A stretch of 64,000 bases of DNA from Thiocapsa rosea. GTDB taxonomy: Bacteria > Pseudomonadota > Gammaproteobacteria > Chromatiales > Chromatiaceae. The position numbers and the translations under genes were made by a program. A model generated the notes under the pieces. It did no database searches. It was given only the letters and a program-made list of their open reading frames with translations, and was not told where the DNA came from. The DNA lies in the NCBI RefSeq assembly GCF_003634315.1, contig NZ_RBXL01000001.1, positions 4,010,501 to 4,074,500 of the forward strand. Reading direction: 5' to 3'. This document shows positions 13,619-41,899 of the stretch, piece by piece (the first letter of the stretch is position 1; the number at the start of each line of letters is the position of its first letter).

Positions 13619-14764
13619 ATGAACGAGAAACCGGCAATGGTGCCGCCGGGCCCCGATGAACGACGGGATTCCCTCGGCAATCAAGCTCACGATTCAAGCA
13701 ATGCGGGTCAGCGCGATCCGTCGGGTGCAGGTTCGAGCGCGCGAACGGGTTCGCGCCCTTCGCCGCTGCGTGTCGTGGGAATCGGGCTTGCCCTCTGCGC
13801 TGTCATCGTGCTCGCACTCGGCATTGTCTGGTCGCGCCAGCCACCCACCTTCGACGTTGCGGCACTCCAGGCGACAGAGCTGGCGGCCATCGAGGGCAGC
13901 AGGCCGGTGCCGGGAACGGCGGTCGTGGCTGCGGCGATCGGCGTCGGAGAGACCCTGTTGGACAAGCCGGGTGGGTTTCTCTTCAACGATATCACTCCGC
14001 CGGGAATCTATCTGGACAACATGCCGAACTGGGAATACGGGGCGCTTAAGGAGCTTCGTGATTCCGTGCGTGCGCTTCGCAACGACTTCAGCCGCTCCCA
14101 AACCCAGTCCATCGAGAACGACCATGCGAAGCGTGCAGACGTGAAGCTCGCGATCGATGCCTCGTCGTGGATGCTCCCCTCCGCCGAGGACGAGTATCGC
14201 CAAGCCATGGATTCGTTGCGACTCTTCCTGCGTGATCTCTCCACCGGTCGGGACCGCAGTGCGCGCTTCTACGCCCGTGCGGACAACCTCGCCGCCTATT
14301 TGTCGGTCGTCGAGAAACGGCTCGGCAGCCTTGCCTTGCGTTTGAGTGCGAGCGTGGGCGACCATGAGCTGGCGGCCGCATTGATCATGAATGTCGGCGA
14401 TCCCAATGCCGAGATGGAGCCAGAGATCGAGTCAATGAAGATCGACGGTGGCGGAGGGGCGACGCCTTGGTACCTGGTCGATGATATCTTCTACGAGGCT
14501 CGTGGCTACACCTGGGCCTTGTTGCACATGATGCGGGCCGTCTCCATCGACTTCGCGGACATTTTGGCCTCCAAGAATGCGGACATCTCGATTCAGCAGA
14601 TCATTCGCGACCTCGAGGGTGCGAGCAAGACGATGGCCAGCCCGATCGTGCTCAACGGGCACGGCTACGGTTTCTTGGCCAATCACTCGCTGGTGATGGC
14701 GTCCTATATCTCGCGCGCCAATGCCGCGGTGCTCGATCTGCGGATCCTGATGCAGCAGGGCTGA
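13619..14764 (+). CDS. DUF2333 family protein
   Basis: 381 aa; strong ribosome-binding site AAAGGAG 7 nt before the ATG. One membrane helix near residues 50-70 after a Pro/Ser-rich cytoplasmic N-terminus, then a large periplasmic alpha-helical domain with the DUF2333 motifs KPGGFLFNDITPPGIYLDNM, NWEYGALKELRDSVRALRND and AIDASSWMLPSAEDEYRQA. Members occur in envelope gene neighbourhoods of gammaproteobacteria, but no function is assigned. The TGA stop (14762-14764) falls inside the left end of a dispersed repeat element. Confidence 0.9.
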   Translation: MNEKPAMVPPGPDERRDSLGNQAHDSSNAGQRDPSGAGSSARTGSRPSPLRVVGIGLALCAVIVLALGIVWSRQPPTFDVAALQATELAAIEGSRPVPGTAVVAAAIGVGETLLDKPGGFLFNDITPPGIYLDNMPNWEYGALKELRDSVRALRNDFSRSQTQSIENDHAKRADVKLAIDASSWMLPSAEDEYRQAMDSLRLFLRDLSTGRDRSARFYARADNLAAYLSVVEKRLGSLALRLSASVGDHELAAALIMNVGDPNAEMEPEIESMKIDGGGGATPWYLVDDIFYEARGYTWALLHMMRAVSIDFADILASKNADISIQQIIRDLEGASKTMASPIVLNGHGYGFLANHSLVMASYISRANAAVLDLRILMQQG

Positions 14765-14849
14765 ACCGCGACCCGGTTCAGACAGGCGTTGTTGTCCTAT
14801 CGGCTCGGCGTCGCGTGAATCAAGCGGCGTCGGAGCCGGCGCGGTTCAG
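14761..14849. repeat. ~88-bp dispersed repeat with terminal inverted repeats, copy 1
   Basis: 89 bp bounded by CTGAACCGCG (14761-14770) and CGCGGTTCAG (14840-14849). No coding capacity. The left end supplies the stop codon of the DUF2333 gene. Same size and ends as six other copies in this window (31705, 31811, 36831, 37079, 37812, 41812). Confidence 0.65.
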
Positions 14850-14863
14850 AAGATCACCGAGGC

Positions 14864-14958
14864 AGGGTGGACAAGGAGAGTAGGGTGGACAAGCGCAGCG
14901 CAGTCCACCCGCGCCGGAGCGGGGTTCGGTGGATTTCGCTCTCGCTCGTCCACCCTAC
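14864..14958. repeat. nested inverted repeats of GGGTGGAC
   Basis: GTAGGGTGGAC at 14880-14890 pairs both with GTCCACCC at 14903-14910 (inner hairpin) and with GTCCACCCTAC at 14948-14958 (outer hairpin); another GGGTGGAC begins at 14865. This is a REP-like intergenic palindrome between convergent genes, unrelated to the TTAAACCGCG element next to it. Confidence 0.6.
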
Positions 14959-15030
14959 CGGCCGATCGTATGAACAAGACCGACTTGCCCCAAACCACGT
15001 CTAGCCCGCCGGAAATCACCGGGACCAACA

Positions 15031-15054
15031 AAAAGGGGCCTTTCGGCCCCTTTA
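15031..15054. terminator. bidirectional rho-independent terminator
   Basis: AAAGGGGCC-TTTC-GGCCCCTTT forms a 9-bp stem with a 4-nt loop, with A-rich sequence on the left and TTTAAAT on the right, so it could terminate both the DUF2333 transcript from the left and the fccAB transcript from the right. Confidence 0.75.
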
Positions 15055-15081
15055 AATCTCATCACGGTGTGATCAACCCAC

Positions 15082-15118
15082 GTTAAACCGCGTCCAGAGC
15101 GAGATGCTGATTTTCGAG
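15082..15118 (+). repeat. single end of dispersed TTAAACCGCG repeat
   Basis: GTTAAACCGCGTCCAGAGCG followed by AGATGCTGATTTTCGAG. It matches the half-elements at 12277-12310 and 41865-41899 on the opposite strand. It lies just downstream of fccB; no partner end is visible within 100 bp. Confidence 0.55.
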
Positions 15119-15141
15119 TGAGGTCGACGTTCGGTCCATCC

Positions 15142-16434
15142 TCAGCCGAAAGAGTCCTCTACGATGTTCTTGTACCAGCTGTAGGCGTATTGCACCTCGC
15201 GGGCCAATGCCCAGTCGGGTGCATCCATCGGTGTGACACCGCCCGAGCCCTCGACGTCCGCGATCGCGCTGCCGTCTTCGGCCATCCGATAGACGCCGGC
15301 GACCGAGATGCCGTAGTCCGTGCCGACGATCGAATAGCAGGTGTTGACGTAGGACGGTGTTCCGGGCTCTTCGCCCTTAAGCATGGCGACGACCGCAGCC
15401 GCAGCGACCTTGGCCTGGCTGTTGGCCGCATAGGCGGATTTCGGCATGGCGCCGGCGATGCAGGCGTCGCCGATGACATGGATGCCGGGTTGGAGCTTGG
15501 ACTCGAAGGATCGGAAGTCCACCGGGCACCAACCGCTGTCGTCGGCCAGACCTGCGGTCTGGGCGATCTCTCCGGCCCGCTGCGGCGGGATGATGTTGAT
15601 GATGTCGGCCTTGATCTCGTCTCCGAAGCCGGTCTCGACCGTCATCTCGTCGACCTTGACCAGGCTGACGGCCGCATCTGGACCCGGGCGCCACTCGATC
15701 AGTGCGTCGTCCGTCCCGAAGCCATAGAGTCTCTCCCAGGCTTGGGTGAAGAGCGCCTGTTTGGAGAACGCCTGCTTGGAGTCAAGGATGATGACCTTCG
15801 ACTTGGGCTTGTTGGCCTTGAAATAATGGGCGATCTGACTGGCGCGCTCGTATGGCCCGGGCGGGCAACGGAAGGGGTTGGCCGGAGCCGAGATGACGAC
15901 CACGCCGCCGTCGGCCATGTCTTCAAGCTGCTTGCGCAGGATCAGGGTCTGCTCGCCGGCCTTCCAGGCGTGCGGCAGCTTCTGCGCAGCGTCTTCGCTG
16001 TAGCCTTCGACCTTGTCGAACAGGATTTGGATACCCGGGGCGACGATGCAGCGATCGTAGCCGAATTCGGTGCCGCCTGCGGTCTTGACGACCTTCTTTT
16101 CGGCATCGATACCCGCCGCAGTGTCATGCACCACGTTGATCCCGTGCGCCTTGAGTCCGTCGTAGCCGACCTTGAGCGTATCGAAAGCGCGGTCTCCGCC
16201 GAGCACTTCGTTGCTCAGATAGCAGGTGATGTATTCCTCGTTGGGCTCGATGACCGTCACGTCGATGCTCGAATCGGCCATCTTGATGTACTTGGCGGCG
16301 GTCGCACCACCGGTGCCGCCGCCGACGATCACGACCTTCTGCGTCGCGCCGAGGGCGAGGTGCGGTGCACCGATCAGGCCGACAGCGGTTGCTGCGCCCG
16401 CGACCTTTACGAAATCACGTCTGTTGATCTTCAT
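15142..16434 (-). CDS. fccB: flavocytochrome c sulfide dehydrogenase, flavoprotein subunit
   Basis: 430 aa. FccB oxidises sulfide in the periplasm with covalently bound FAD and passes electrons to the FccA haem subunit. A Tat signal opens the protein ([17 protein letters not shown]), followed by the dinucleotide-binding motif [10 protein letters not shown]. The cysteine in [15 protein letters not shown] matches the residue that links FAD through an 8-alpha-cysteinyl bond, and CPPGPYER plus the cysteine in [10 protein letters not shown] match the redox disulfide near the flavin. Length is as expected. It follows fccA by 23 nt, and a GGAGG lies about 10 nt before the ATG. It ends just before a terminator. 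Confidence 0.96.
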
Positions 16435-16457
16435 TCCGTTCTATCCTCCGGTGGCGA

Positions 16458-17075
16458 TTACTGCTGGCTCGCGTAGAAAGCAAACACGGCGGCGAGCCCC
16501 GCGTCTCCGTCCTTCTCGAGAAGGTCATCCAGCTTGCTCTTCATCTTCTTGGGAATCTCGCGACGATCCGCCCGGAAGTCCTCCATGGAATAGGCGAGAT
16601 AGGGTGTCCACTGGCCGGCGAGGAGGTAGAAATCCTCGGCATCTTCACCGGTGTCCGGATCACGCAACGGGATGCCGCCCTCGGCATGGCAGTTCTCGCA
16701 GTATTTGTCGTGCAGCTTCGCACCCTGGTCAACCAGCGCCTTGTCGTAATCCTGTTGGGCGGGCTTGAACTCCTGAGTGTTGAAGAACTCTGCCATCTGC
16801 TCGAATTCCTCGTCCGTATAGCCTTTGGCGATCCGGCCCATGATGGTCGAGTAGATGTCGCCGCTCTTGTAGCCCTGCATCATGTCGACGAAGACAACCC
16901 GGTTGATCCCGGCGATGATGGGCGATGCCGGACCCGCACTGTGGCCGAGGGTGCCGTGACAACCGGCGCAGGTGTTGGCAAGCATCGATGCTGTGGCGTC
17001 GGCATTGGCTCCCGAGGACACGCCGAGCGCGAGTGCGCCGGCAAGTAGGGCCAATCTTGGTGATATCGTGGCCAT
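16458..17075 (-). CDS. fccA: flavocytochrome c sulfide dehydrogenase, cytochrome c subunit
   Basis: 205 aa. Sec signal peptide of about 26 residues, then two c-type haem motifs, CAGCH near residue 37 and CENCH near residue 130, the dihaem form known from purple sulfur bacteria (green sulfur bacteria have a monohaem subunit). A GGAGGA lies 3-5 nt before the ATG at 17075. FccA accepts electrons from FccB and reduces soluble cytochromes in the periplasm. Cotranscribed with fccB and possibly with the ankyrin and tetrahaem cytochrome genes upstream. Confidence 0.95.
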
Positions 17076-17207
17076 GCTTCCTCCAAATGGTCGTTAGGTG
17101 GTGTCGGTAACGCGCGGCGCTCGATGCCGCGATGCAGGAGGGGCGTCCTTTTTGCGTCCCTCGGTGCATTTGGTGTCGCCCCGGGCCGCGTCGGTCGCGT
17201 GTCGTCC

Positions 17208-18194
17208 TCAGGGGCTGAGTCGCTGCGCCAAAAGCGCGGCGGCTTCTCGATTGCCTCGTTGCTCCGCCAGATCCCCGGCGGTGCGCCCGTCGCTGTTTGT
17301 CAGGGCAGGGTCGGCGCGATAGGTCAGCAGGGTTTGAATCAACTCGGCGTGGTCCGTGACGACCGCTTCCATCAACGCGGAGGTGCCGTCCTCGTCCTGA
17401 AGATTGGGATTGGCCCCGCGCTCGAGCAGGAGCAGGGTGGCGTCGGGATGTCCCTGGCTGATCGCCAGGATCAGCGGTGTTGCCCCGAGTCCGTCGCGGG
17501 CATTGACGTCAGCGCCCGCGTCGAGCAGGGCCTTGACCACGTGCCAGTGACCGGCGTCGGCCGCAAGCAGCAGCGCCGTCTCGCCCTCCTTGTCCCTGGA
17601 CTCAAGCTCCGCACCGGACTCGATCAAGAGGTCGACGACCTCGACCTGTCCGTGCACGGCGGCGAGCATGAGCGCGGTTCGCCCCTCTCGATCGGATGCC
17701 TTGGGGTCGGCGCCGCGAAAGAGCAGCTGCTCGGCCATGTCGGAAATGCCGTAACGCGAGGCGATCATCAAGGGATCCCAGCCGATGCGGGTTCGGTCGT
17801 GTACGTTCGCGCCGCGCTCGATCAAAACGGCCGTGATGGCGATGTTGCCGTGCTCTGCGGCAAAGGTGAGCGGCGTGCAGCTCGCAACGGTGCGGGCATT
17901 GACGTTGGCCCCACGCGTCAGGAGCAGGGCAACCGTCTCGAGATCGTCGGATTCCACGGCGACCATCAAGGCGGTTTTGCCTAATTCGTTGGCCGCATCA
18001 ACCGGAATCCCTTGGTCGAGCAGGGCGGCGACGGCCTCGGTGTCGCCGATCATGGCGGCGAGGCGAAGCTCTTTGCCGAGGTCGGGGCTCACCGGATCGG
18101 CCGCCTGCACCTCGGTGAGCAGCACGGCACCAACGATCAGCAGGAGTGAGCCGATCGCCCGACGATATTGGCTCGAAAGCTGGATGACACTCAT
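17208..18194 (-). CDS. exported ankyrin-repeat protein
   Basis: 328 aa. Hydrophobic signal peptide (about residues 12-32, cleavage near VQAADP), followed by eight or nine ankyrin repeats; several show the classical [20 protein letters not shown] or [20 protein letters not shown] form, ending in a short capping repeat ([20 protein letters not shown]). Ankyrin repeats mediate protein-protein contacts; the signal peptide places this one in the periplasm, where the neighbouring FccAB and cytochrome also work. It lies 33 nt after the tetrahaem cytochrome gene and 132 nt before fccA, all on the same strand, so a role in assembly or docking of that redox system is plausible but unproven. Confidence 0.9.
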
Positions 18195-18227
18195 GACCGA
18201 CCTCGGCGTGTTCGCTGCATGGCGCGC

Positions 18228-18872
18228 TCAGGCGGCGTCCGGATCCGCGGGAGTGGCTTTACCCCCGGTGCTCCGAGCCGCTTCGGATGTCGCTGCCGTG
18301 TCCTCTGCAGGCGCTTTCGGGGGCTCGTCGGACGGCGGCTCATCGGGGAGATGATGCGCGATCCCTTTGTGACAATCGATGCAGGTTTGTCCGCGATCCT
18401 CGGCCGCGCCGTGTCGGCTGCGTGCGGAGCGGCTCTGTGCCGACAGATCCATGTTGGAGAAGTCGTGACAGCTCCTGCAGGTGCGCGAGTTGTCCGCCTT
18501 CATCCTGTCCCAGACACGATTCGCCATTGCCCAGCGCTGCGCCTCGAACTTCTCCGGGGTGTCGATCGTGCCGATCAATTCGTGATAGACGTCCTTGGCG
18601 GCCATGAGCTTGGCATGGAGCTTGGGGAAAAACTCCCGCGGCACATGACAGTCCGAGCAGGACGCTTGGACACCGGAGGCGTTCTTGTAGTGAACCGTCT
18701 CCTGATACTCGGCGTAGGGGACCTGTAAACTGTGGCAAGAGACACAGAGGTCCATTCGGTTCGAATAGGCCAGACCGCCGGACATGGCAACGGCAAATCC
18801 GATCCCCGCCACGAACACCAGTACCAAGACGACAAGCGATGTCCTGCGTGTGGATTTGCGGGCTTCAGACAT
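18228..18872 (-). CDS. NapC/NirT-type tetrahaem cytochrome c
   Basis: 214 aa. One N-terminal membrane anchor (about residues 14-36) and four haem-binding motifs: CVSCH, CSDCH, CRSCH and CIDCH. This is the NapC/NirT/TorC layout of quinol dehydrogenases that move electrons between the quinone pool and periplasmic partners. The start is set at the second of two close ATGs (18872) because AGAGG lies 6 nt before it but abuts the first ATG (18878); an open frame to 19115 has no support. The tail of about 40 residues is Pro/Glu/Ala-rich. Position upstream of fccAB suggests exchange with sulfide oxidation; direction of electron flow cannot be inferred. Confidence 0.9.
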   Translation of the reverse strand: MSEARKSTRRTSLVVLVLVFVAGIGFAVAMSGGLAYSNRMDLCVSCHSLQVPYAEYQETVHYKNASGVQASCSDCHVPREFFPKLHAKLMAAKDVYHELIGTIDTPEKFEAQRWAMANRVWDRMKADNSRTCRSCHDFSNMDLSAQSRSARSRHGAAEDRGQTCIDCHKGIAHHLPDEPPSDEPPKAPAEDTAATSEAARSTGGKATPADPDAA

Positions 18873-20202: not shown

Positions 20203-20227
20203 CGTGTCACCAGTGCTTGCGATTCGG

Positions 20228-29084: not shown

Positions 29085-29130
29085 TCGCTCGGGGCGGCAT
29101 CGGGGATGAACGCGGACGCGGAAGCACGGC

Positions 29131-30695: not shown

Positions 30696-30748
30696 TCGAT
30701 CGCAATCCCTGCGCGGTTGCTTAGAGCCGCAACGGGTTGGAGTTGACG

Positions 30749-31708
30749 GTGCACCCGGGTCTCCCCGAATCCGTGCGTCTGATCGTCGCGATCTCCTCGC
30801 GCGCGCTCTTCGATCTGAGCGAGTCTCACCAGGTGTTCGAGACGCAGGGTGTCGATGCCTATCGCAACTTTCAGGTCGCCCACGAGAACGATATCCTCGA
30901 GCCCGGCGTTGCCTTCGCGCTCGCCAAAAAGCTCATGAGCCTCAATACGGCCCTCGGTGACCGCGGGCGCGTCGAGGTTATCCTGATTTCACGCAACAGC
31001 TCGGATACCGGGCTGCGCGTCCTGACCTCCGCCCATCACCACGGCCTGGATATCGCACGCGCCGCCTTTACGGGCGGGGCAAGTCCTTACCGTTATGTGT
31101 CCGCCTTCGGTGCGCATCTGTTTTTGTCCGCGGATCCGAGGGACGTTCGCTCGGCCTTGACTGCAGGGTGTGCCGCAGCGACCGTCCTGCCGGCAGCGTT
31201 TCCGGCGGATCCGGAGGAGGATGAGCAGGTTCGCATCGCGTTCGACGGCGATGCGGTGTTGTTCTCCGACGACGCGGAAAGACTCTTCCGTCGCGAGGGG
31301 CTCGAGGTCTTCAACGCGACCGAGCTGGCCTCCGCGCATGAGCCGCTACCCGGCGGACCTTTCAAAGGCTTGCTGGTCGCGATCCATCAACTTCAGGCAC
31401 TCTTCCCGCCCGAAGCATCGCCCCTGCGCACGGCGCTCGTCACCTCGCGCGGCACGCCATCCCATGAGCGGGTGATCCGCACCTTGCGTGCTTGGGATAT
31501 CCGCATCGACGAGGCACTTTTTCTCGGCGGGCTCGACAAGGGGCGCTTTCTCGCGGCCTTCGACGCGGACATCTTCTTCGATGATCAGCGTGTCCATTGC
31601 GATGCCGCGAGCCGTCATGTGGCAACCGGCCATGTTCCGCACGGTGTCGCCAATCCAGAGGGTGACCCGCCGATCCGAATGGCCGAGTCCGCAGATAACC
31701 CCGGCTGA
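30749..31708 (+). CDS. 5'-nucleotidase (cytosolic type I-like)
   Basis: About 319 aa. Matches the cytosolic 5'-nucleotidase family (PF06189): LIVAISSRALFDLSESHQVF at the start, EVILISRNSSDTGLRVLTS, SADPRDVRSAL, RIAFDGDAVLFSDDAE (aspartates of the HAD-like active site) and DEALFLGGLDKGRFLAAFDADIFFDD. Hydrolyses nucleoside monophosphates. I prefer the GTG at 30749 because GGAG lies 6 nt before it; TTG codons at 30737 and 30743 are alternatives. The TGA stop sits in the left end of a dispersed repeat. Confidence 0.88.
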   Translation: MHPGLPESVRLIVAISSRALFDLSESHQVFETQGVDAYRNFQVAHENDILEPGVAFALAKKLMSLNTALGDRGRVEVILISRNSSDTGLRVLTSAHHHGLDIARAAFTGGASPYRYVSAFGAHLFLSADPRDVRSALTAGCAAATVLPAAFPADPEEDEQVRIAFDGDAVLFSDDAERLFRREGLEVFNATELASAHEPLPGGPFKGLLVAIHQLQALFPPEASPLRTALVTSRGTPSHERVIRTLRAWDIRIDEALFLGGLDKGRFLAAFDADIFFDDQRVHCDAASRHVATGHVPHGVANPEGDPPIRMAESADNPG

Positions 31709-31790
31709 ACCGCGTCCGGACCGCCATGTTCGGTTTCGAGCGAGTTCAACGGTTCGTGCGCCCCGGCCTCTCGGCGGTGACGCGGTTTAG
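31705..31790. repeat. ~88-bp dispersed repeat, copy 2
   Basis: 86 bp with ends CTGAACCGCGTCC (31705-31717) and GTGACGCGGTTTAG (31777-31790). Left end contains the stop codon of the 5'-nucleotidase gene (31706-31708). A second copy follows 20 bp further on, so two units stand in tandem between convergent genes. Confidence 0.65.
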
Positions 31791-31810
31791 AATCTCATCT
31801 TGTTCAATTT

Positions 31811-31900
31811 CCTAAACTGCGCCGACTCCCACAGTGGCCGATCGCTCGAAGGCCGATCCAATCCTCCAAACATCGCATATCGTAACGGGCGCAGTTTAGG
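31811..31900. repeat. ~88-bp dispersed repeat, copy 3
   Basis: 90 bp bounded by a perfect 13-bp inverted repeat, CCTAAACTGCGCC (31811-31823) and GGCGCAGTTTAGG (31888-31900). Read on the minus strand the right end continues CGTTACGATATGCGATG, which aligns with the CGATATGCGTCAT part of the half-element at 41865-41899. It overlaps the last codon and stop of the FimX-like gene (31896-31898). Confidence 0.65.
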
Positions 31901-33974
31901 GCTGAATGTCGAGCGTCGGCGAAGGACGCTGCAGGAAATTGCCCTGGACATAATCGACCCCCGCCGTCCAGAGAACGGTGAGAGCACGCGCGTCCTCCAC
32001 CCCTGTCACGACGCTCTTCACGTTGAACTCGCGTGCGAGATTCGCGATGCTCATGAGGCGTTGTTGCTTGACCGGGTCTTCGGCCAGTGCACGGGCGAAA
32101 TCCGGCATCAGAACGACGAAATCGACCGGAAGCGCCTGCAGGATCATCTCGGAGCGGTTGGTTGCGCCGAAACGGTTGATCGCGACCCGGCACTTGATCT
32201 GCTTTAAGGCATCGATCAGCTTGCCGAGACTGGCCAGATTCTCCGCAACCAGCTCTTCCTGAAACTGGAAGGCGAGCCAGTTGCCGCGCACGTCGAACTC
32301 ACGCAGACAGTCGCAGATGTGCAGGATGATGCTCGGGTTGCGGAAGGTGTCTTCCGCCAGATTGATCAAGAAACGCAGGTTATGGCCTGCTTTGCGCTGC
32401 TCGGCGAGCACGCGGACTGCGTCGCGGATCGCCCATTTGTCGATCTCCTCGATCAGCCCGCGTCGGATCGCCGCGCCGATGAAGTCCTTGGCCTCCAGCA
32501 ACTCGCCGTTCTCGTCGAGCAGGCGCACCAGAACACTGTAATTCTCCTGGTTGTCGCCCATGAGGCTGATGATGGGTTGATAGACGAGCTTGAACTGCTC
32601 GTTGCCGAGCGCGGTCGCAATCTTGTCCGCGACCTCGGTGTCGCCGTCCACCGCGGTTTGTTTGGTTCGTGCAGCCAGCGATGTCGGGGTCTGCATCCCG
32701 CCGGCACAGTCACCGGGCGATGCCGCGCTGTAGACACAGAGTCTGTGCGCGGCATTGAGGATGTCTTGCGCGGCGGCTGCACGTCCCTTCACCAAGTAGT
32801 ATCCGATATCGCAGTCCGGCGCGATGTGTCCCGTGGTTGCAAGGCGCTGCGGCAGGCGGGCGTGCTCACGGATGTGCTCGGCGAGTGCCTCGGCTTCTTT
32901 TTCGTCTAAGCCGTCGATGATCATCGCGAAACCGTCGTCGCTGATCCGGGTGAGGGCGCAGGCTTGGACGGCAACCGAGGCCAAGACCGGGCCGAAGCCG
33001 TCGACGATGTCCAGGCCGTGGGTGAGACCCAGATCGCGCAGAAGCTCCGAATGGCGTCTCAAGCGGATGAAGAAGACCGCAAAGGGCAGCGGGACCGATC
33101 GATCCGGACCGAGCCGCGTTTCGATCTCCTCGAAGAAGGCCGTACGAGCGGCGGCGATATCGGACGCCATGTCGCCACCCTTGACCCGCTCGCCGCACTG
33201 TTGCACGGGATCCAAGATCAACCGCAGACACGGCTCGTCGTCCAGGACAGCATGTGCCGCGGACAGGCGCGCCTCGAACCCTCTGCCCCGGCTCGAACGC
33301 AGGCGTGTCGTGATCTCGACCGGCTCGGTCTGAGCCGTGCGCTCGGCGCTCTGCAGCAGATCGCGCACAGCGTCGCGCTGGCTCGGATCGACAAGGTCAA
33401 GAAGGGCAATCGCCTGGATCTCATCCAGGCTCGGATAGCCGAGAAGCGCAAGATAGGTGCTGTTGGCGTAAAGGTGGAGACCCTGCTGCACGAAGGCGAT
33501 CGCGGCGCCGGTATGGTCGATCAACTCACGGGAGCGTCTTTCGCACTGTTTGAGCCGAATCGCCAACTCACGGGCGCGGCGACGTTGACGCAGATCGCCT
33601 GCTTCGCGTCGGATGGCCCAGAGAAGCTGCTCCTCTTCGCCGAGGGCGAGCAGGCCGCGTGCGCCGAAGCGCTGCGCTTCGAGCACATCCTCCGGGCTCG
33701 GCCCGCCTGCGGCGATCATGATGAGCGGGGTCTCGGCCGCGCGCTCGCCGCGACGTCGAATCGCATCCGCCAACTCCAGGTCCTCGTCGTGGCGCCACCA
33801 GAGGATCATGTCGAAGGCGCGACGCGCGAGCAGATCGTTCAATCGATCCGATCGCGCGGTGACCAGCGCACGGGCCGCGAGCCCGGCTGCACGCAGGCGC
33901 TCCACCAAGCGCTCCGCGGCGACGGTGTCGGTGGTGAGCAGGAGCAAGGCCAGCAGTTGGGGTTGCGCGGACAT
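31896..33974 (-). CDS. fimX: FimX-like protein: REC-like, PAS, degenerate GGDEF and EAL domains
   Basis: 692 aa from ATG 33974 (a GTG at 34013 would add 13 residues). In order: a receiver-like domain without a clear phospho-acceptor Asp (LLLLTTDTVAAERLVERLRA), a PAS domain (~150-270), a degenerate GGDEF domain (LTRISDDGFAMII in place of GGDEF) and a degenerate EAL domain. EAL is replaced by SVL (ENYSVLVRLLDENGE), and catalytic acidic residues are lost (QFQEE, VVLMPDFA). This is the architecture and length of FimX, which binds c-di-GMP without hydrolysing it and controls type IV pilus assembly and twitching. Orphan location; pil genes are not in the window. Confidence 0.85.
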   Translation of the reverse strand: MSAQPQLLALLLLTTDTVAAERLVERLRAAGLAARALVTARSDRLNDLLARRAFDMILWWRHDEDLELADAIRRRGERAAETPLIMIAAGGPSPEDVLEAQRFGARGLLALGEEEQLLWAIRREAGDLRQRRRARELAIRLKQCERRSRELIDHTGAAIAFVQQGLHLYANSTYLALLGYPSLDEIQAIALLDLVDPSQRDAVRDLLQSAERTAQTEPVEITTRLRSSRGRGFEARLSAAHAVLDDEPCLRLILDPVQQCGERVKGGDMASDIAAARTAFFEEIETRLGPDRSVPLPFAVFFIRLRRHSELLRDLGLTHGLDIVDGFGPVLASVAVQACALTRISDDGFAMIIDGLDEKEAEALAEHIREHARLPQRLATTGHIAPDCDIGYYLVKGRAAAAQDILNAAHRLCVYSAASPGDCAGGMQTPTSLAARTKQTAVDGDTEVADKIATALGNEQFKLVYQPIISLMGDNQENYSVLVRLLDENGELLEAKDFIGAAIRRGLIEEIDKWAIRDAVRVLAEQRKAGHNLRFLINLAEDTFRNPSIILHICDCLREFDVRGNWLAFQFQEELVAENLASLGKLIDALKQIKCRVAINRFGATNRSEMILQALPVDFVVLMPDFARALAEDPVKQQRLMSIANLAREFNVKSVVTGVEDARALTVLWTAGVDYVQGNFLQRPSPTLDIQP

Positions 33975-34065
33975 GATGCGGTCTGGTGGTGGACCCACGA
34001 GGTTTCGGGACACTGTTGTCTCGGCGATTATCGGACTTCGCGGACCATTAGGGAAACGAACGCGA

Positions 34066-35139
34066 TCACAAGAACGGAGATCCGATTGGAGCGGCGTCGG
34101 TTAAGGGGGTCTTGGATCCGACGCCCGGAACCTCGCGGACCAAGCGCGGGACCAGATAGCCGGGCAGGCGTTCCCGCAACGCCTCGCCGAGTCGCAGTGC
34201 TTGCGCGTCGGAGACCGCGAAGTGAGCAGCGCCTTCCACCGGGTCGAGCTGGTGGAGGTAATAGGGCAGGACCCCGCATTCGAAAAGCCGCTCACTGAGG
34301 GCACCGAGTATCGGGGCCGCGTCGTTGACCCCGCGCAGCAAGACGCTTTGGTTGAGCAAGGTCAGATCGGCGCGACGCAATCGCTGCAATGCCTCCTCGG
34401 CCTGCGCGCCGAGTTCGTTCGGATGATTGGCATGGACGACGAGGATCGTGGCGAGACGGGAGTTCGCCAAGCCTCGACAGAGTGCATGGGTGACCCGAGA
34501 TGGCAGAACGACGGGGAGGCGTGTATGGATCCGCAGGCGTTTCAGGTGCGGGATCTCGTGCAGGCGTTCAAGCAGTACACCGAGGCGATCGTCGTCCAGC
34601 ATCAAGGGATCCCCGCCGCTGAGGATGACCTCGGAGATCTCCGGGTCCGCGGCGATGGCGGCCACCGCAACGGCCGTGCGATCCGGCGTTTGGCCGAGCG
34701 CGGCATATGGAAAATGCCTTCTGAAGCAATAGCGGCAGTGCACTGCGCACCCCCCCGTGACGATCAGGAGGGCGCGGCCCGCATATTTTCGCAGCAACCC
34801 CTGACCGAGATCGGCCGACGCATCTCCAACCGGGTCGCGGGTGAAGCCGGCGACGGGCAAGCGTTCCGCTCCGAGCGGCAGGACCTGTCTGAGCAGTGGG
34901 TCGCCAGGGTCGCCCGGTGTCATCAAGGCGGCAAAGGCGCGCGGAACCAGCATCCGGAATCCAGGTGCAGCGGGGTCGAGATCCGGGATCGCCTCCGGAC
35001 TCAGGCCGAGTGAGGCGAGGAGCTCCTCGGCCTGCCGGTAGGCATCGGCGAGGTCGTGTTTCCAGGCCGGCTCCCGCGCGGGCGTGCGGAACAGATCCGG
35101 CGTCGCGGTCTGACAAGCGGCGATGCTTCGCGGTACCAT
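34066..35139 (-). CDS. epmB: EF-P-specific lysine 2,3-aminomutase
   Basis: 357 aa, radical SAM enzyme. [15 protein letters not shown] carries the CxxxCxxC cluster motif; [15 protein letters not shown] and the PLP-region [18 protein letters not shown] are typical of the KamA/EpmB group. The protein lacks the C-terminal extension of clostridial KamA and starts with EpmB-like helices ([20 protein letters not shown]). EpmB makes (R)-beta-lysine, which EpmA attaches to EF-P. The gene is divergent from efp with 34 nt between start codons, and epmA follows efp, so the functional assignment is firm. Confidence 0.95.
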
Positions 35140-35140
35140 T

Positions 35141-35151
35141 GCGCGGTTTAG
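35141..35151. repeat. single end of dispersed repeat in epmB-efp promoter region
   Basis: GCGCGGTTTAG, matching the inward end of the TTAAACCGCG elements, in the 34-nt gap between the divergent start codons of epmB and efp. Too short to be conclusive on its own. Confidence 0.35.
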
Positions 35152-35173
35152 CTCCACAGTCAACGAGGACGAT

Positions 35174-35746
35174 ATGGCCTTTTACAGTACCAGCGAGTTC
35201 AAGGGTGGACTCAAGATCATGTTGGACGGCGATCCTTACAACATCGTCGAGAACGAGTTCGTCAAGCCAGGCAAGGGCCAGGCCTTCAACCGAGTGCGGG
35301 TGCGCAACCTCAAGACCGGACGAACCGTGGAGAAGACCTTCAAGTCGGGCGACACGGTGGAAGCGGCCGATGTGCATGATACCGACATGCAGTATCTCTA
35401 CAACGACGGTGAAGAGTGGCACTTCATGGACCCAGCCAGCTTCGAGCAGATGACCGCCGACGCGAACGCCATGGGCGAAGCGGCCAAATGGATCAAAGAG
35501 GAAGACATCTGCCGGGTGACGCTCTGGAACGGGGTGCCGCTGATCGTCGAGGCACCCAACTTCGTGGTGCTGGCGATCACCGAGACCGACCCCGGTCTGA
35601 AGGGCGACACCTCGGGCGGCGGTGGCAAGCCGGCGACACTGGAGACGGGCGCAGTGGTCCGTGTGCCCTTGTTCGTTCAGTCCGGCGAGCTTGTGAAGGT
35701 CGACACCCGCACCGGCGAGTATGTCTCGCGCGCCAAAGAGGCATGA
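35174..35746 (+). CDS. efp: translation elongation factor P
   Basis: 190 aa (family 185-190). Three-domain EF-P with the [20 protein letters not shown] loop; Lys34 in PGKGQ is the residue that receives beta-lysine in gammaproteobacteria. EF-P relieves ribosome stalling at proline stretches, relevant because many proteins here are proline-rich. ATG at 35174 preceded by AACGAGGACG. Flanked by both modification enzymes. Confidence 0.97.
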
Positions 35747-35821
35747 CGACGAGACGCGGTCGCGCGATGCCGGCTTGACCGGCGCCGTCCGCTCGCCTTT
35801 GCCGTCGAACTGCCGATCCTG

Positions 35822-36826
35822 ATGCCTGCTTCCGATGACTGGTCGGCGTGCGCAACGACCGCCGTCCTACAGGCCCGTGCCGAGATGCTGGCGCGGATTC
35901 GCGCCTTTTTTGCCTCTGCCGGCGTGATGGAGGTCGAGACACCGATCCTCTCGCACGCCGGTGCGACGGATCCGGCGCTCGCGAGTCTCTCGCTCTCGGT
36001 TGGCCGATCGGGTGGCGTGTCCGACGCCGATCGGAGGCTCTTCCTGCAGACCTCGCCCGAGTTTCCGATGAAACGTCTGCTCGCCTCGGGGAGTGGTCCT
36101 ATCTATCAGATCTGCAAAGTCTTTCGCGGCGAGGAGCGCGGGCGACGGCACCACCCCGAGTTCAGTTTGCTGGAGTGGTATCGACCGGGCCTGGACGACG
36201 GACAGCTCATGGACGAGGTGGCCGAATTGGTGCGCGCCGCGCTGCAACGCCCCGGGCTGCCGATGGAGCGCATCCGCTATCGCGACCTGTTTTGCGAGGT
36301 GTTGGACGTGGATCCCTTCACCGCGTCTGCGAAAACCCTGCGTGCGGCCGCGATCAGAGCCGAGATTCCCGATGCCGATCGGCTGGAACTCGAGCGCGAC
36401 GCCTGGCTCGATCTCCTGCTCACCCAGTGTCTCGAGCCGCGTCTCGGGCGTGCCGGCATGAGTTTTCTCTGCGACTACCCGCCGAGCCAGGCCGCCTTGG
36501 CGCGGATTCGGCCCGCCGGAGAGCCGCCCGACGATCAGGCGGTTGCCGAGCGTTTCGAGCTGTATATCGACGGCGTCGAGCTGGCGAATGGTTTTCACGA
36601 GCTGACCGATGCCGCGGAGCAGTGTGCGCGTTTTGCGCACGATTGCGCCGAGCGTCGCCGTCTCGGCTTGGCTGAAATCCCGCCCGACACCCGTCTGCTT
36701 GCTGCACTTCAGGCCGGCATGCCGGTGTCGAGCGGGGTCGCGCTCGGACTCGACCGCTTGTTGATGATCGCCGTTGGCGCCACGCACATCGATCAGGTTC
36801 TGGCCTTCCCCATCGAGCGGGCCTGA
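35822..36826 (+). CDS. epmA: EF-P--(R)-beta-lysine ligase
   Basis: 334 aa. A truncated class II lysyl-tRNA synthetase without the anticodon-binding domain (PoxA/GenX/YjeA). Visible are the class II motifs: VMEVETPILSHAGATDPALA (motif 1), FRGEERGRRHHPEFSLLEWY (motif 2) and SSGVALGLDRLLMIAVGA (motif 3). It activates (R)-beta-lysine made by EpmB and links it to Lys34 of EF-P. It lies 75 nt after efp. Length is close to E. coli EpmA (325 aa). Confidence 0.96.
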   Translation: MPASDDWSACATTAVLQARAEMLARIRAFFASAGVMEVETPILSHAGATDPALASLSLSVGRSGGVSDADRRLFLQTSPEFPMKRLLASGSGPIYQICKVFRGEERGRRHHPEFSLLEWYRPGLDDGQLMDEVAELVRAALQRPGLPMERIRYRDLFCEVLDVDPFTASAKTLRAAAIRAEIPDADRLELERDAWLDLLLTQCLEPRLGRAGMSFLCDYPPSQAALARIRPAGEPPDDQAVAERFELYIDGVELANGFHELTDAAEQCARFAHDCAERRRLGLAEIPPDTRLLAALQAGMPVSSGVALGLDRLLMIAVGATHIDQVLAFPIERA

Positions 36827-36830
36827 CGTG

Positions 36831-36919
36831 TGAAACCGCGTCCCTCTGCGCTATGGGCCGTCGGCGTTCGGGATTGATCTTGGAGGGTGTCTGCGGGCCT
36901 TTGCGCCGACGCGGTTTCA
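36831..36919. repeat. ~88-bp dispersed repeat, copy 4
   Basis: 89 bp bounded by a perfect 12-bp inverted repeat, TGAAACCGCGTC (36831-36842) and GACGCGGTTTCA (36908-36919). It begins 4 nt after the epmA stop. No reading frame inside. Confidence 0.65.
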
Positions 36920-37005
36920 GAGATTGAACGCCGAAAGAAGGATTCAAACACAACCGAAACCCTGTCTTTTCCGCGCCGCGACCCGGATTGGGCGTTTCAG
37001 CTGTG

Positions 37006-37036
37006 AGGATGGGTTTCGCGGTGCTCTACCCATCCT
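37006..37036. repeat. REP-like hairpin AGGATGGGT...ACCCATCCT
   Basis: Nine-base perfect inverted arms (37006-37014 and 37028-37036) around a 13-nt loop, in the gap between two ~88-bp repeat copies. It resembles common intergenic palindromes of gammaproteobacteria; no T-run follows, so it is probably not a terminator. Confidence 0.5.
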
Positions 37037-37078
37037 ACGCATTCGCGGTGTGGTTGGATCTCTCGTTGTTGAAATCTC

Positions 37079-37162
37079 CTGAACCGCGTCCTGCCGAGGG
37101 CATGTGTCGAAGCGACTCATCGTTACCCAGCAACGCTGCATGTCGCTCCGGACGCGGTTCAG
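37079..37162. repeat. ~88-bp dispersed repeat, copy 5
   Basis: 84 bp bounded by a perfect 13-bp inverted repeat, CTGAACCGCGTCC (37079-37091) and GGACGCGGTTCAG (37150-37162). The right end contains the stop codon of the minus-strand gene 37159-37770. Confidence 0.65.
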
Positions 37163-37770
37163 TCGGCCAAGGCGTTTTGGATGGCCACCAGGTCCAGCGC
37201 CTCCAGGTATTGCTCCAACGGGGCGGAATCTGCCAGGCCGGAGCCTTCGCCCTGCACCAAGAGTCGGTTCCCGACCATGAGGGTGACTTTGTAGGTCTGG
37301 CTGCCGGGGGTGTGCTCCATCATGCCGCGCTCGCCTTTGAGCGAGTAGGTCTTCAGATCCTCGTTGGCCTGCATCATGAACGGCATCGAGATGGCCATGG
37401 TCAGCATCGGCATCATCGGCGAGTCGGCCATCAGGGTCAGGCTCACCTCGGCGTTGTCTTCTCGGACATAGCGCCGACTGAGGTGAGTCCCGGTCAACAT
37501 GGACGCGAGGCCGCCCGATTGGGACTGCGCCTCGTCTGCGACCCATCCGTCCAGAGGCGGCGGAAACAGTGTCAGAAGGCTGGCGGTAATCTGCGCCCGA
37601 ATCGCCTCGGCGGCGGCGTTCAAGGTCTCCGCGGCCGTTCTGAGCTCGCCGGCCGCGTACGCCTGCTTGGCCGCGTCCATTTGATCCGTCACCTCGTCCG
37701 CGGCGGCTGTGCCGAGCGTCAGAGCGAGTCCGGCGGCCAGGGCCAGGGTGCCCGTGATCTTTGCGTGCAT
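37159..37770 (-). CDS. exported protein of unknown function
   Basis: 203 aa. Signal peptide of about 24 residues (cleavage near AAADEV), then a helical segment (QMDAAKQAYAAGELRTAAETLNAA), a region with PPPLDGWVADEAQSQSG and a Met-rich stretch around MMPMLTMAISMPFMMQANED, ending VQGEGSGLADSAPLEQYLEA. The pattern (N-terminal helix, then a beta-rich domain reporting variance of a small molecule or polymer) is common in uncharacterised periplasmic proteins; I do not recognise a named family. It is bracketed by two copies of the ~88-bp repeat, one of which provides its stop codon. Confidence 0.7.
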   Translation of the reverse strand: MHAKITGTLALAAGLALTLGTAAADEVTDQMDAAKQAYAAGELRTAAETLNAAAEAIRAQITASLLTLFPPPLDGWVADEAQSQSGGLASMLTGTHLSRRYVREDNAEVSLTLMADSPMMPMLTMAISMPFMMQANEDLKTYSLKGERGMMEHTPGSQTYKVTLMVGNRLLVQGEGSGLADSAPLEQYLEALDLVAIQNALAD

Positions 37771-37811
37771 CTGTTTCTCCGTTTGCGCGTTATCGAGACG
37801 GCATGAAGGGT

Positions 37812-37901
37812 GTTAAACCGCGCCAGGTGCGGTATGCGTCATGTGTTGGAATGGCTTGGTCGCGCCAGCTCCGACGGCTGTCGGAGCTGGCGCGGTTTAA
37901 C
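37812..37901. repeat. ~88-bp dispersed repeat, copy 6, with internal perfect hairpin
   Basis: 90 bp bounded by GTTAAACCGCG (37812-37822) and CGCGGTTTAAC (37891-37901). The left part continues CCAGGTGCGGTATGCGTCAT, matching other copies. The right half is a perfect 15-bp stem with a 4-nt loop: CGCGCCAGCTCCGAC (37861-37875) and GTCGGAGCTGGCGCG (37880-37894). It lies 5 nt downstream of bioB and could act as its transcription end, though no T-run follows. Confidence 0.65.
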
Positions 37902-37906
37902 GTCCG

Positions 37907-38953
37907 TCAGTGCTCGACAATCGCATCCAATGCCTGTTTGGCCTTGTGGCAGGCGCCGGGTTCGGTGCGTTCGGGGTCCATCTCTTCGAAGGCCAGGCCC
38001 AAGCGCGCGAACAAGGCGCGATCTCGGTCGGACTCGGCATTCGGCGTGGTCAGCAAGCGATCGCCGTAGAAGATGGAGTTGGCGCCTGCGAGGTAGCAGA
38101 GTGCCTGCAGCTCGTCGCTCATCTCGCTGCGTCCGGCGGACAGGCGTACATAGGAGGCCGGCATCAGGATGCGCGCGGTCGCAACCACCCGGACGAACTC
38201 GAACGGATCCAGAGCCGCGCTTTCCTGAAGCGGTGTACCCTCGACCCGAACGAGCAGATTGATCGGGACGGACTCGGGATGCGCCGGAAGGTTGGCGAGT
38301 TGCCGCAACATGGACGCGCGGTCGCGCCGCGACTCGCCCATGCCGAGGATACCGCCGCTGCAGGTCTTCAGACCCACGTCGCGGATATGCTCGAGGGTGT
38401 CGAGCCGGTCCTGGAAGGTGCGTGTCGTGATGACTTGACCGTAGAATTCGGGGGAGGTGTCGAGGTTGTGGTTGTAATAATCGAGCCCGGCGTCCTTGAG
38501 GCGGCGCGCTTGGGCTCCGGTGAGCATCCCCAAGGTGACGCAGGTCTCCAGCCCGAGCGCATGGACGCCCTCCACCATGGCGATGACCTGCTCCAGGTTC
38601 TTGTCGGTTGGATTGCGCCAGGCCGCGCCCATGCAGAAGCGGGTTGCCCCCTGCTCGCGGGCGATTCGCGCGGCGTCCAGGACCTCGTCGATCGGCATCA
38701 GAGACTCGCGCTCGAGCCCGGTCTCGTGACGTGCGCTTTGGGCGCAATAGCCGCAGTCCTCGGGGCAGGCGCCGGTCTTGATGCTGATGAGTGTGCTGAC
38801 CTGGACGCGGTTGGGGTCGAAGTAGAGTCGATGCGCCGTCTGGGCGCGAAACATCAGATCGGTGAAGGGGAGGTCGAGGATGGATTGGATCTCCTCGACC
38901 GACCAATCGTGGCGCAGGATGGACACATGGAGCGGGGAAGGCTTGGGTGACAT
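37907..38953 (-). CDS. bioB: biotin synthase
   Basis: 348 aa. Radical SAM enzyme inserting sulfur into dethiobiotin. Cluster motif [11 protein letters not shown] near residue 55; other conserved parts are [35 protein letters not shown] and the arginine region [13 protein letters not shown] that binds the auxiliary [2Fe-2S] cluster. I took the ATG at 38953 (MSPKPSPL); the frame to 39025 adds residues not seen in BioB. Divergent from comF. No other bio genes are in the window. Confidence 0.96.
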
Positions 38954-39024
38954 GGGCGTGATGGGCCGATTTCCGGGTGCGGAAAAACCACTTATGCTAG
39001 TGGGCTTGGGTCGGTTGTCAACCA

Positions 39025-39759
39025 ATGTTCGGTGATCCGGTCGAAACGGGCGGCGTCATTTCCCGGCTCGCCTCGGTGTTGTTCCCGCCGACCTGCGTCC
39101 TCTGCGGTGCGCCGGGCCTCATGAGCGGAGGAGGGCGCGACCTCTGTTCCGGCTGCGCGGCCGAGTTGCCGCACAACCGCGATTGCTGTTTCCAATGCGC
39201 CGTGCCCTTCGACAGCCCGATGCCCGCGGGGACGCGGTGTGCCGCCTGTCAGCGGCACCCGCCGCCGTTCGAGACCAGCCTTGCGGCCTTTCGCTACGAG
39301 GCGGCGATCCCGACGCTGGTCGGCGGCGCGAAGTTTCGCGGACGGCTCAATCTGGTGCGGTTGCTCGGCCAATGTCTCGCCGATCGGGTCCGAGAGGTCG
39401 ATCCGCCCCGACCGCAGGTGCTGTTGCCGGTCCCGCTGCATGCGTCTCGGCTGCGCACCCGCGGCTACAACCAAGCGCTGGAGATCGCCCGCGTCGTCGC
39501 CCGTGATCTGGCCCTGCCGATCGATCACGCCTCCTGCATCCGCACTGCGCCGACCCCGCCGCAGGCCGGCCTCGACGAGCGCGCACGCCATCGCAATATT
39601 CGAGGTGCATTCCTGGCCCCCGGCTTGCTGCCTTGGAGCCACGTCGCCATCCTCGACGATGTCGTCACAACCGGCAGCACCGTCGCCGAGCTGAGCCGGG
39701 TGCTGCGCAAAGCCGGGGTTCAATGGATCCAGGTCTGGGCGGTGGCGCGTACGCCCTGA
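39025..39759 (+). CDS. comF: ComF family protein (phosphoribosyltransferase-like)
   Basis: 244 aa. N-terminal zinc-finger-like cysteines ([35 protein letters not shown]), then a phosphoribosyltransferase domain ending with the PRPP loop [19 protein letters not shown]. ComF/GntX proteins are linked to DNA uptake in competent bacteria; the biochemical role is not settled. The divergent position next to bioB is a common gammaproteobacterial arrangement. Length typical. Confidence 0.92.
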
Positions 39760-39829
39760 TCCCTGCCGGCTCGGCTTAAGAAGTGAGCCGTTACGACGCC
39801 GTCGGTTGTGCTGACGCGCGCTGGAGGCA

Positions 39830-41662
39830 TCAGGCGAGTTGTTGGATGAGCTGGGTGTCGCGCTCGATCTTGTTTGCGAAGTGGCTCGCCATACTCATCA
39901 GCATCTTCACATGAAGCGATTCGGGGATGGCGTCGAAGCGCAGCTCCAGGCAGCGGGTATCGGTGACCGCCGATACGTTGGCCGTGCGGCGCTTCCGGTT
40001 CACCAAGGCAACCTCGCCGAAGACCATTCCCGGGCCGAGGCTGGTGAGTCTCAAGCGGTGTCCCGCGCCGGCATCGACCCAGACCTCGACCTCGCCGCTG
40101 AAGATGAAGAACATGGACTCGGCACAATCCCCGGCGTCGAAGATGCGGGAGCCGGTCTTGAACGCGCACTCCCGGCCCGCTTGCCGGAGCGCTTCAAGCT
40201 CGTCGCCCGTCATCGCGGCGCACAGATACTGGTGGCTGAGATCCGCGACCGGGGTGTCGGCACCGGTTGTCTCCGCCTCGGCGATCAGTTGATTCTCGCA
40301 CCACTCCACCGCGTGATCGGTGTCCTCGAAGTGCAGCGGACCCGGCTCCTGCCCGCGATAGGCACTTCCCTGGAGGTGCTTTCGGAAGCGATAGAGGTTC
40401 TTGCTGTCCGTGAAGAAGAGCCTCTTGCCCTCGTCGGCAATCCGCATGCAAAGTTCGCTCAAGACCAGAATCGATGCCTGGTCCGTCCCGATCACCCGTT
40501 TGAGATCGATGACCAGGTAATCGACCCGCGCCAGCTCCGAGAGGATCTCCACGCCCACCGATTCGGCACTGCCGAACAACAGCTCTCCCTGCAGCTCGTA
40601 GACGCGGATGCGATGCCCTTGCTCCGCGAGTACGGCAAGCTCCGCCTCGCTGCGACGGCGGCGCGAGGTCCGCTTGGCGCAGTCGTAGACCTGACGCATA
40701 ACGGTGGCGGAGGTCGAGCGTGCGACATGGAAGAGGTGCAGACTGAAATCCTTGGAGAGCCGCTTACAGGCCTCGATGCCGCGCACACTGTTGCCCTTGG
40801 CGTCGAGGCGCGGCGAGAAGACGCCGAGTCCGAACTGTCCGGGCAGCACGGCCATGATCCCGCCGCCCACGCCGCTCTTCGCCGGCATCCCGACGTTGTA
40901 GATCCAACCGCCCGAAAAGTCGTACATTCCGCAGGTGCTCATGACGCTCAGCACCTTCTCGACGTAACGCGACTGCAGCGCGACGACCCCGGTGACCGGA
41001 TTCACCCCGTTGTTGGCCAGACAGGCCCCGATCATCGCCAGATCTCGCGCGGTCACCAGGATGGAGCACTGCTGAAAATACAGATCGACCACCTCCTCGG
41101 GAGCGCGATCGAGGATCCCGTAACCGAGCAGGAGGTGCGCGATCGCCCGATTGCGGTGGCCGGTGTCGCTTTCGGAGCGATACACCCTCTCGTCGATCTC
41201 CATCGGCCGGCCGGTATAACGCCCGAAGGCTTCGAGAATCCGCTGCATCGGCGGGGCGTTCGGGTTGCCCTCGATCAAGCCCGTGGTCGCGATGGCGCCC
41301 GCATTGATCATTGGGTTCATGGGACGCCCGGTGCCGGGCTCCAGGCTGATGGAGTTGAACGCCTCGCCCGAAGGCTCGACACCGACCTTGCTCAGCACTT
41401 GGTCGAGCCCGCGATCTTCCAGCGCCAGACCGTAGGTAATCGCCTTTGAAATTGATTGAATGGTAAAGCTCTGACGCGAGTCGCCGACCTGGTAGACATG
41501 CCCGTCGACAGTGACCATCGCGATCCCGAGCCAGGTCGGATCGGCGCGCGTCAGCTCCGGGATATAATCGGCGACGTTGCCGTCGTTCAGGTCGAGCAAC
41601 TCTTCATGGATACGGTCGAGGTAACGCTGGACCGGAGAGAACTGGAAGGCCCGCTTGTCCAT
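39830..41662 (-). CDS. glsA: glutaminase A fused to STAS and cyclic-nucleotide-binding domains
   Basis: 610 aa; glutaminase alone is about 305. Residues 1-310 are glutaminase with the beta-lactamase-like Ser70-x-x-Lys73 pair (TIQSISKAITYG), PMINAGAIAT and GGWIYNVGMPAKSGVGGGI; it converts glutamine to glutamate and ammonia. Residues about 350-455 form a STAS domain (YLVIDLKRVIGTDQASI); the usual phospho-acceptor Ser position is not clearly kept. Residues ~485-605 are a cNMP-binding domain with a good phosphate-binding cassette (VFGEVALVNRKRRTANV). AGGAG lies 6 nt before the ATG at 41662. The fusion suggests control of glutamine breakdown by cAMP or cGMP and by a partner-switching network. Confidence 0.93.
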   Translation of the reverse strand: MDKRAFQFSPVQRYLDRIHEELLDLNDGNVADYIPELTRADPTWLGIAMVTVDGHVYQVGDSRQSFTIQSISKAITYGLALEDRGLDQVLSKVGVEPSGEAFNSISLEPGTGRPMNPMINAGAIATTGLIEGNPNAPPMQRILEAFGRYTGRPMEIDERVYRSESDTGHRNRAIAHLLLGYGILDRAPEEVVDLYFQQCSILVTARDLAMIGACLANNGVNPVTGVVALQSRYVEKVLSVMSTCGMYDFSGGWIYNVGMPAKSGVGGGIMAVLPGQFGLGVFSPRLDAKGNSVRGIEACKRLSKDFSLHLFHVARSTSATVMRQVYDCAKRTSRRRRSEAELAVLAEQGHRIRVYELQGELLFGSAESVGVEILSELARVDYLVIDLKRVIGTDQASILVLSELCMRIADEGKRLFFTDSKNLYRFRKHLQGSAYRGQEPGPLHFEDTDHAVEWCENQLIAEAETTGADTPVADLSHQYLCAAMTGDELEALRQAGRECAFKTGSRIFDAGDCAESMFFIFSGEVEVWVDAGAGHRLRLTSLGPGMVFGEVALVNRKRRTANVSAVTDTRCLELRFDAIPESLHVKMLMSMASHFANKIERDTQLIQQLA

Positions 41663-41811
41663 TGAGACTCCTGAGAGATGTTCAGAAACAGAGTGTCCGA
41701 TCGAGGCCCGGTCGGTGGGGACACCGACGTATGTCGAGGGGTCGGATGGGCGACTGCGCTGAACCCTCATCGCGCCGAAATCGATCGCCCGACCCGAGTA
41801 AATCGGTCACC

Positions 41812-41899
41812 GTTAAACCGCGTCTCACCGAGATCGAGGACATCTCCGAAGCCTAACGCAAAATGAAAATGACGCATATCGCTCTAGCCGTGGTTTAAG
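41812..41899. repeat. ~88-bp dispersed repeat, copy 7
   Basis: 88 bp, ends GTTAAACCGCGTC (41812-41824) and CCGTGGTTTAAG (41888-41899). Read from the right on the minus strand: CTTAAACCACGGCTAGAGCG then ATATGCGTCATTTTC, the best match to the half-element at 12277-12310. Upstream of the glutaminase gene, in a gene-free stretch. Confidence 0.65.

Follow-up and report, generated by a model that had tools for sequence, protein, structure and literature searches.

We describe a family of short intergenic repeats found in a stretch of 64,000 nucleotides from the genome of Thiocapsa rosea (hereafter, the window). The repeat unit, mostly 84–86 bp in length, is a miniature inverted-repeat transposable element (MITE) and belongs to a TA-targeting family of Chromatiaceae. 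This classification is based on the inverted ends of the units, the duplication of a TA dinucleotide on insertion, the presence of empty sites in related genomes and a count of 593 strict copies in the T. rosea genome. Because mobility extends to the single unit as well as to a composite of two units, and the old copies keep their ends paired, we regard the family as a new variation on bacterial MITEs. The reading that we consider best, to which we assign a probability of roughly 0.72, is that of a TA-targeting MITE whose old copies have been kept as stem-loops at the 3' ends of genes.

Each unit starts with TA-AACCGCG(T/C)C, continues with an interior of approximately 62 bp and ends with the complement of its beginning. 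The inverted ends are 11–12 bp long. At 84–86 bp, the unit is too short to encode a transposase. A sequence-only reading of the window had proposed seven such units of uniform size, several of them with a common inner block. All seven are real, with inverted ends and boundaries within 1–2 bases of those proposed, and the CGATATGCGTCAT-like block is, by eye, the beginning of two of the four recognisable subfamilies. These subfamilies, designated as A–D, are alike over about 24 bp at the outer end. For the analysis of their features, 273 units with ≤2 mismatches in the ends were collected from six regions totalling 2.4 Mb in four genomes; 84 of these were too diverged for assignment to a subfamily. 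The unit length was 84, 85 or 86 bp in 237 of the 273. Likewise, when a distance of 50–130 bp was allowed between perfect ends in 864 kb of scanned sequence, 72 of the 76 pairs were 84–87 bp long, in agreement with the proposed constant size.

Pairs of facing ends at 62–92 bp numbered 593 in the 6.11 Mb genome, or about one strict copy per 10 kb, versus 0 for a reversed-pattern control. The genome-wide count that the sequence-only reading had called for thus describes a high-copy family, the opposite of ends occurring at chance level and at random spacing. Single ends with ≤1 mismatch were in mild excess within the window (27 versus 13.1 expected), and 1 of 100 shuffles reached at least 27. 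Beyond T. rosea, the pattern was present in 8 of 10 genomes of the same genus, with 1 to 489 copies each, and was lacking in the other two. A narrower pattern was detected in 28 of the 210 genomes of the order that were searched, all of which represent one family; the 28 include T. rosea itself, 10 of 61 genera are represented, and 12 of the carriers have only 1–3 copies. A scan of named genomes matched at least 120 stretches, and the 80 listed all come from Chromatiaceae (Thiocapsa, Thiobaca, Lamprocystis, Thiocystis and other members). The sequence-only reading had regarded the family as undescribed, and the literature searched, with the matches listed for the end sequences judged by title, contained no description of this Thiocapsa/Chromatiaceae repeat. 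A search of the whole window against Rfam 15 at the gathering score returned a single tRNA and no match to a repeat unit.

Two inverted units placed around a short AT-rich spacer form a composite of about 190 bp. The first 864 kb contained 121 units, among which we found 35 such inverted pairs with spacers of 20–33 bp (22–23 bp in 24 of the 35); the 273 units of the six regions gave 72 pairs. The composites join a B or D unit with an A or C unit, and all four combinations were seen. Read by eye, the spacer has a constant direction relative to the units, from B/D to A/C, in nearly all of the 62 orientable pairs; among the exceptions are one D–B pair and some pairs in which a unit is unassigned. 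In several genomes, fragments of unit ends directly abut intact units (e.g., G000:C1:2400716-2400811), and similar fragments in at least two species (e.g., G008:C66:20434 and G001:C1:4184585) look as if an end had been left by an earlier event.

The single unit and the whole composite were both shown to be mobile and to duplicate TA on insertion, because empty sites in relatives lack either the unit or the whole block. We compared 62 units within 400 kb around the window (region C) with three relatives, which gave 63 comparisons. At five loci, a single unit was missing in the relatives, the difference being the unit length minus 2 (±1 bp); a composite was missing as one block of 189–195 bp at four further loci; seven units had an ortholog equal in length within 3 bp. 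At five of the nine empty sites, base-by-base reading showed a single TA, with TA at both sides of the filled sites. The insertion target is TA, mostly within YTAR. The family is polymorphic, as indicated by the clean empty sites, yet partly old, the same copies being shared by as many as eight genomes within one genus.

The units often sit at the stop codons of genes. Gene positions for the counts of placement, pairing, wobble and T runs were obtained with a simple codon-usage caller instead of annotation. On this basis, 175 of 177 units in the T. rosea genome are intergenic, lying between tandem (96), convergent (51) or divergent (28) genes; the corresponding intergenic space, units included, amounts to 128.5, 47.3 and 55.2 kb, respectively. 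In 93 of the 273 units, one end coincides exactly with a stop codon. For comparison, 310 of the 2546 YTAR sites that lie at stops or between genes are at stops, and 1110 further sites lie in coding DNA. When single A–D units of the six regions are located at stop codons, it is the outer end that lies on the stop in 21 and the inner end in 4. TAA and TAG contain TA and the element starts with A, so that TAA is rebuilt and a gene would tolerate the insertion. Judging from placement, this tolerance probably accounts for part of the stop-codon excess, and preference and selection are not separable in these counts.

Maintenance of the closing stem in old copies is supported by comparison across species, through few independent events. 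Eight old loci were compared using non-reference pairs only, and seven of them gave pairs; at sites 36831 and 37079, 2 and 1 relatives passed the flank filter, leaving 1 and 0 pairs, respectively, and G005 was left out at site 31705, where its unit is gone. The ends differed at 149 of 2754 compared positions (5.4%), the interiors at 1519 of 7305 (20.8%) and the flanks at 1733 of 11179. Another comparison, made against the reference, gave 50/667, 443/1733 and 302/2179, respectively, which are biased in that the reference was picked by its ends. Whole diverged units folded better than shuffled sequences (mean z, −2.5 and −3.3), and their interiors folded no better (mean z, −0.03 for 54 units and −0.16 for 26 units); a conserved interior fold is absent from diverged units. 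Young units, of which 40 of 193 were sampled, gave mean z values of −0.63 and −1.36 on the two strands.

The principal alternative is a purely selfish MITE, in which the old copies are mere remnants, the ends appear conserved owing to the search criterion, and the variants were born matched within each subfamily. It is true that the units were found through their ends, but the divergence of ends remains far below that of interiors among relatives that took no part in the selection. The matching variation of the two ends can be read in either way. Among the 121 units, both sides had changed at position 2 in 17 and one side in 8; at position 10, both sides had changed in 42 and one side in 17. 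Subfamily descent and target symmetry contribute to this variation, and the covariation at positions 10 and −1 is partly of such origin, as a selfish element would predict. Changes in both arms are known from few loci, but they happen at one and the same site. At the locus C1:294353 of G000, the arms are TG..CA in five genomes and TA..TA in three, and in G000 the upstream gene uses this varying arm as its stop codon. The same difference, TG..CA versus TA..TA, also separates G000 from G009 at region C 272620, and both partners of one pair have changed in G003 at the ortholog of the unit at 31706. Considering these data together, we regard a purely selfish origin of the pattern as rather unlikely.

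Another explanation invokes mutation, not selection. Imperfect palindromes can be corrected during replication with the opposite arm of a hairpin as the template, and such correction would keep the ends identical. It would yield two-arm changes without any function, and the ends do form strong stems, but the end consensus is nearly fixed across genera, and a loop of about 62 nt should make such correction inefficient. This explanation appears improbable.

Several observations weigh against a TA-targeting MITE with retained 3' stem-loops. The junction lacks a TA in the relatives at four of the nine empty sites, and the remaining region C comparisons, which make up many of the 63, show other length differences. 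Unit lengths drift by 1–3 bp between species. Among the 25 double differences, 17 are between two standard pairs, all from two loci, and 8 are not; the both-arm changes come down to about three independent ones, as species pairs are non-independent, and template-switch correction of palindromes could produce such changes without selection. Strand-specific wobble pairing, counted over 159 oriented units with position −1 excluded, was flat (31 G–U versus 24 A–C, with 33 other mismatches), and a terminator scan of 31000–42500 flagged no unit. Finally, no full-length element or transposase bracketed by family ends was found among the IS630-type, DDE_Tnp_1 and RAYT-like loci or the solo ends.

The solo ends were read over about 1.2 of the 6.1 Mb of the T. 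rosea genome, and a transposase partner may exist elsewhere. As candidates for an IS630 partner, we examined 32 PF13358 loci in eight genomes. TA-flanked repeats at 14 of them were unlike the family ends, no outer end of the family was flagged at any of the 32, and the IS630 loci of the T. rosea genome had no bracketing pair. Of the features of IS630-derived MITEs, the TA duplication is present in the family and a likeness to resident IS630 ends is lacking. A DDE_Tnp_1 partner was also rejected. Of 21 matches, only L351 was bracketed, and it proved to be an insertion sequence (IS) of about 1.93 kb (L351:1253-3276, near C1:4825361) that has inserted into a C-type unit. L358 and L359 contain near-identical copies of this IS, which have no family ends; the units are thus themselves targets of IS insertion. 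PF13340 had no match in the T. rosea genome. When solo ends 600–3200 bp apart were considered, the best pair was an A-type unit split by about 1 kb of other sequence (region C 379857-380990, corresponding to C1:4239857-4240990), in which no transposase was seen by eye. The open frame from this split unit recurs beside a truncated A-type unit at about C1:4193300-4194000. Solo outer ends numbered 18 of 483, and, for six of them, the neighbouring frames were classed as non-transposase on visual inspection instead of by Pfam.

The sequence-only reading had left open whether the repeats are of the MITE or the repetitive extragenic palindromic (REP) type and had suggested looking for a REP-associated tyrosine transposase (RAYT). 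The MITE part of this proposal agrees with the ends, the TA duplication, the empty sites and the copy number. The REP part does not hold: the genome has nine PF01797 (Y1_Tnp, RAYT-like) matches, and none of these loci is bracketed by a matching pair of ends. At L041 a unit lies 1.3 kb from the locus, and at L045 two end-like motifs are separated by 1.28 kb, with agreement at only 9 of 30 outer bases. The RAYT-like genes and the inverted pairs with a linker, which recall BIME-1, would suit a REP/BIME-like family moved as single-stranded hairpins by a Y1 transposase, but the insertions duplicate TA, which is not expected of Y1 transposition, and we consider such an origin highly improbable. Equally implausible is a pair of protein-binding sites held at a constant helical distance of about seven turns between end centres, which would fit the near-constant length and unstructured interior, but binding sites need not covary and no second length peak occurs one turn longer (+10 bp), the own-genome hits of 93–123 bp numbering 18, many of them with nested partial ends or fused units by eye.

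Returning to the MITE with retained stem-loops, we propose the following course of events. A transposase would act on the 11–12 bp ends, i.e., AACCGCG(T/C)C inside the flanking TA, and would insert one unit or an approximately 190 bp composite at TA, mostly within YTAR, with duplication of the TA. The composite comprises a B- or D-type unit, the AT-rich spacer and an inverted A- or C-type unit. An insertion into a stop codon would rebuild TAA, and the gene would presumably tolerate the copy. Afterwards the interior would drift, and the ends would stay paired at the same site across species, sometimes via two-sided changes, as seen at few loci. Old copies may be kept since the transcript that runs past the stop folds, its GC-rich closing stem protecting or ending the mRNA; the closing stem may in this way act as a 3'-end signal. 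The AT-rich spacer of composites would perhaps assist in the mRNA-end role. A sense-strand T run is present in the spacer of three of six old tandem composites, and young composites show no strand bias of T runs (16 versus 12 of 29).

Bacterial MITEs are mostly viewed as decaying passengers. A further-reaching possibility, which we put forward only tentatively, is that insertions of a transposon have supplied the ends of hundreds of genes with stop codons and 3' stem-loops on which the cell now depends. The switch between TAA and TGA in the stop-codon arm would then be matched by the non-coding arm about 80 bp downstream, and the paired units would constitute a modular, mobile 3'-end signal across several Chromatiaceae. 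As the family is dense, polymorphic and partly old, the question of whether mobile hairpins turn into regulatory 3' ends can be addressed in it directly. The stop-codon arm offers a natural experiment, in which changes of the stop can be compared with compensation in the distal arm at many loci.

The units of the window are listed in the table below. The two truncated units, the pairing into composites and the placement at stop codons are observations beyond those of the sequence-only reading.

Table 1. Repeat units and composite spacer in the window (positions are those of the window).
Feature	Position	Strand	Remarks
Truncated unit, limited to one end and a portion of a B-type interior	12275..12309		Boundary by eye
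Single unit, TG..CA ends	14762..14848		Upstream DUF2333 gene (13619-14764) ends in the unit's first bases (TGA stop)
Truncated D-type unit without right end	15084..15148	+	Boundary by eye
Left unit of old composite	31706..31789		5'-nucleotidase gene (30737-31708) ends in the unit's first bases (TGA stop)
Composite spacer, AT-rich, 23 bp	31790..31812		
Right unit of old composite	31813..31898		Minus-strand EAL/GGDEF gene (31896-34013) has its stop codon in the unit's last bases
Single unit, variant ends GAAACCGCGTC..GACGCGGTTTC	36832..36918		5 bp past the stop of the tRNA-synt_2 gene (35822-36826)
Single unit, TG..CA type	37080..37161		Minus-strand gene (37159-37770) has its stop codon in the unit's last bases
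Young single unit, subfamily A	37814..37899	+	Site empty in 7 of 7 relatives compared
Young single unit, subfamily B	41814..41897	-	Site empty in 3 of 3 relatives with an alignable site

Four of the seven window units have a stop codon within one end. In the old composite, the site of the left unit is occupied in 6 relatives and that of the right unit in 7. By eye, the unit with variant ends is whole in 5 relatives and cut short in 2, and the following TG..CA unit is found in 7 relatives. In the ortholog of the space between these two (36918-37080; L089), G001 is about 200 bp longer and has an extra REP-like inverted repeat, GTAGGATGGGT..ACCCATCCTAC. The window also contains three signalling genes, which encode a SpoIIE-type phosphatase with HATPase and cNMP-binding domains (43305-44975), an AAA_16 regulator with a Trans_reg_C domain (50152-53085) and a CHASE2 protein with a nucleotide cyclase domain (53225-55444).

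Among the known systems compared is RUP of Streptococcus pneumoniae, a 107 bp element for which IS630-Spn1 is the proposed mobiliser (PMC2229807). According to the portion of that account compared, RUP is likewise short, has inverted ends, targets TA and occurs in many copies; its ends resemble those of a resident IS630, whereas no partner was found for the Thiocapsa family, and a two-unit composite is not part of the description (PMC2229807). The Correia/NEMIS elements of Neisseria also have TA at their ends, and their transcripts form stem-loops for which processing by RNase III has been proposed (PMC2229807). They differ in being 107 and 155 bp long with an inverted end of 24 bp, as given in the same excerpt (PMC2229807), whereas the Thiocapsa family has two unit types that occur either alone or linked through an AT-rich spacer. 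ERIC/IRU of enterobacteria is a TA-ended intergenic repeat (PMC2229807) with up to 711 copies in one species (PMC10969869), but it is 127 bp long (PMC2759123), and the parts of the ERIC descriptions compared mention no composite.

Other known repeats resemble the family in their arrangement. CIR of Caulobacter consists of two stem-loop arms with a linker (PMC2229807); the passage compared describes its mobility mechanism as unclear and gives no stem between the 5' and 3' ends (PMC2229807), whereas the Thiocapsa units are each mobile with duplication of TA. REP/BIME elements form inverted pairs about a linker, and REP palindromes are kept via complementary changes (PMC2817692). However, REPs are short single palindromes that delimit a RAYT gene, and neither property applies to the Thiocapsa family; the ends of a Thiocapsa unit pair across about 62 nt. 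By this comparison, the family works like a MITE of the RUP, Correia and ERIC kind and is arranged somewhat like a BIME. What sets it apart from the MITEs compared is that the single unit and the composite are both mobile and that old copies have paired ends.

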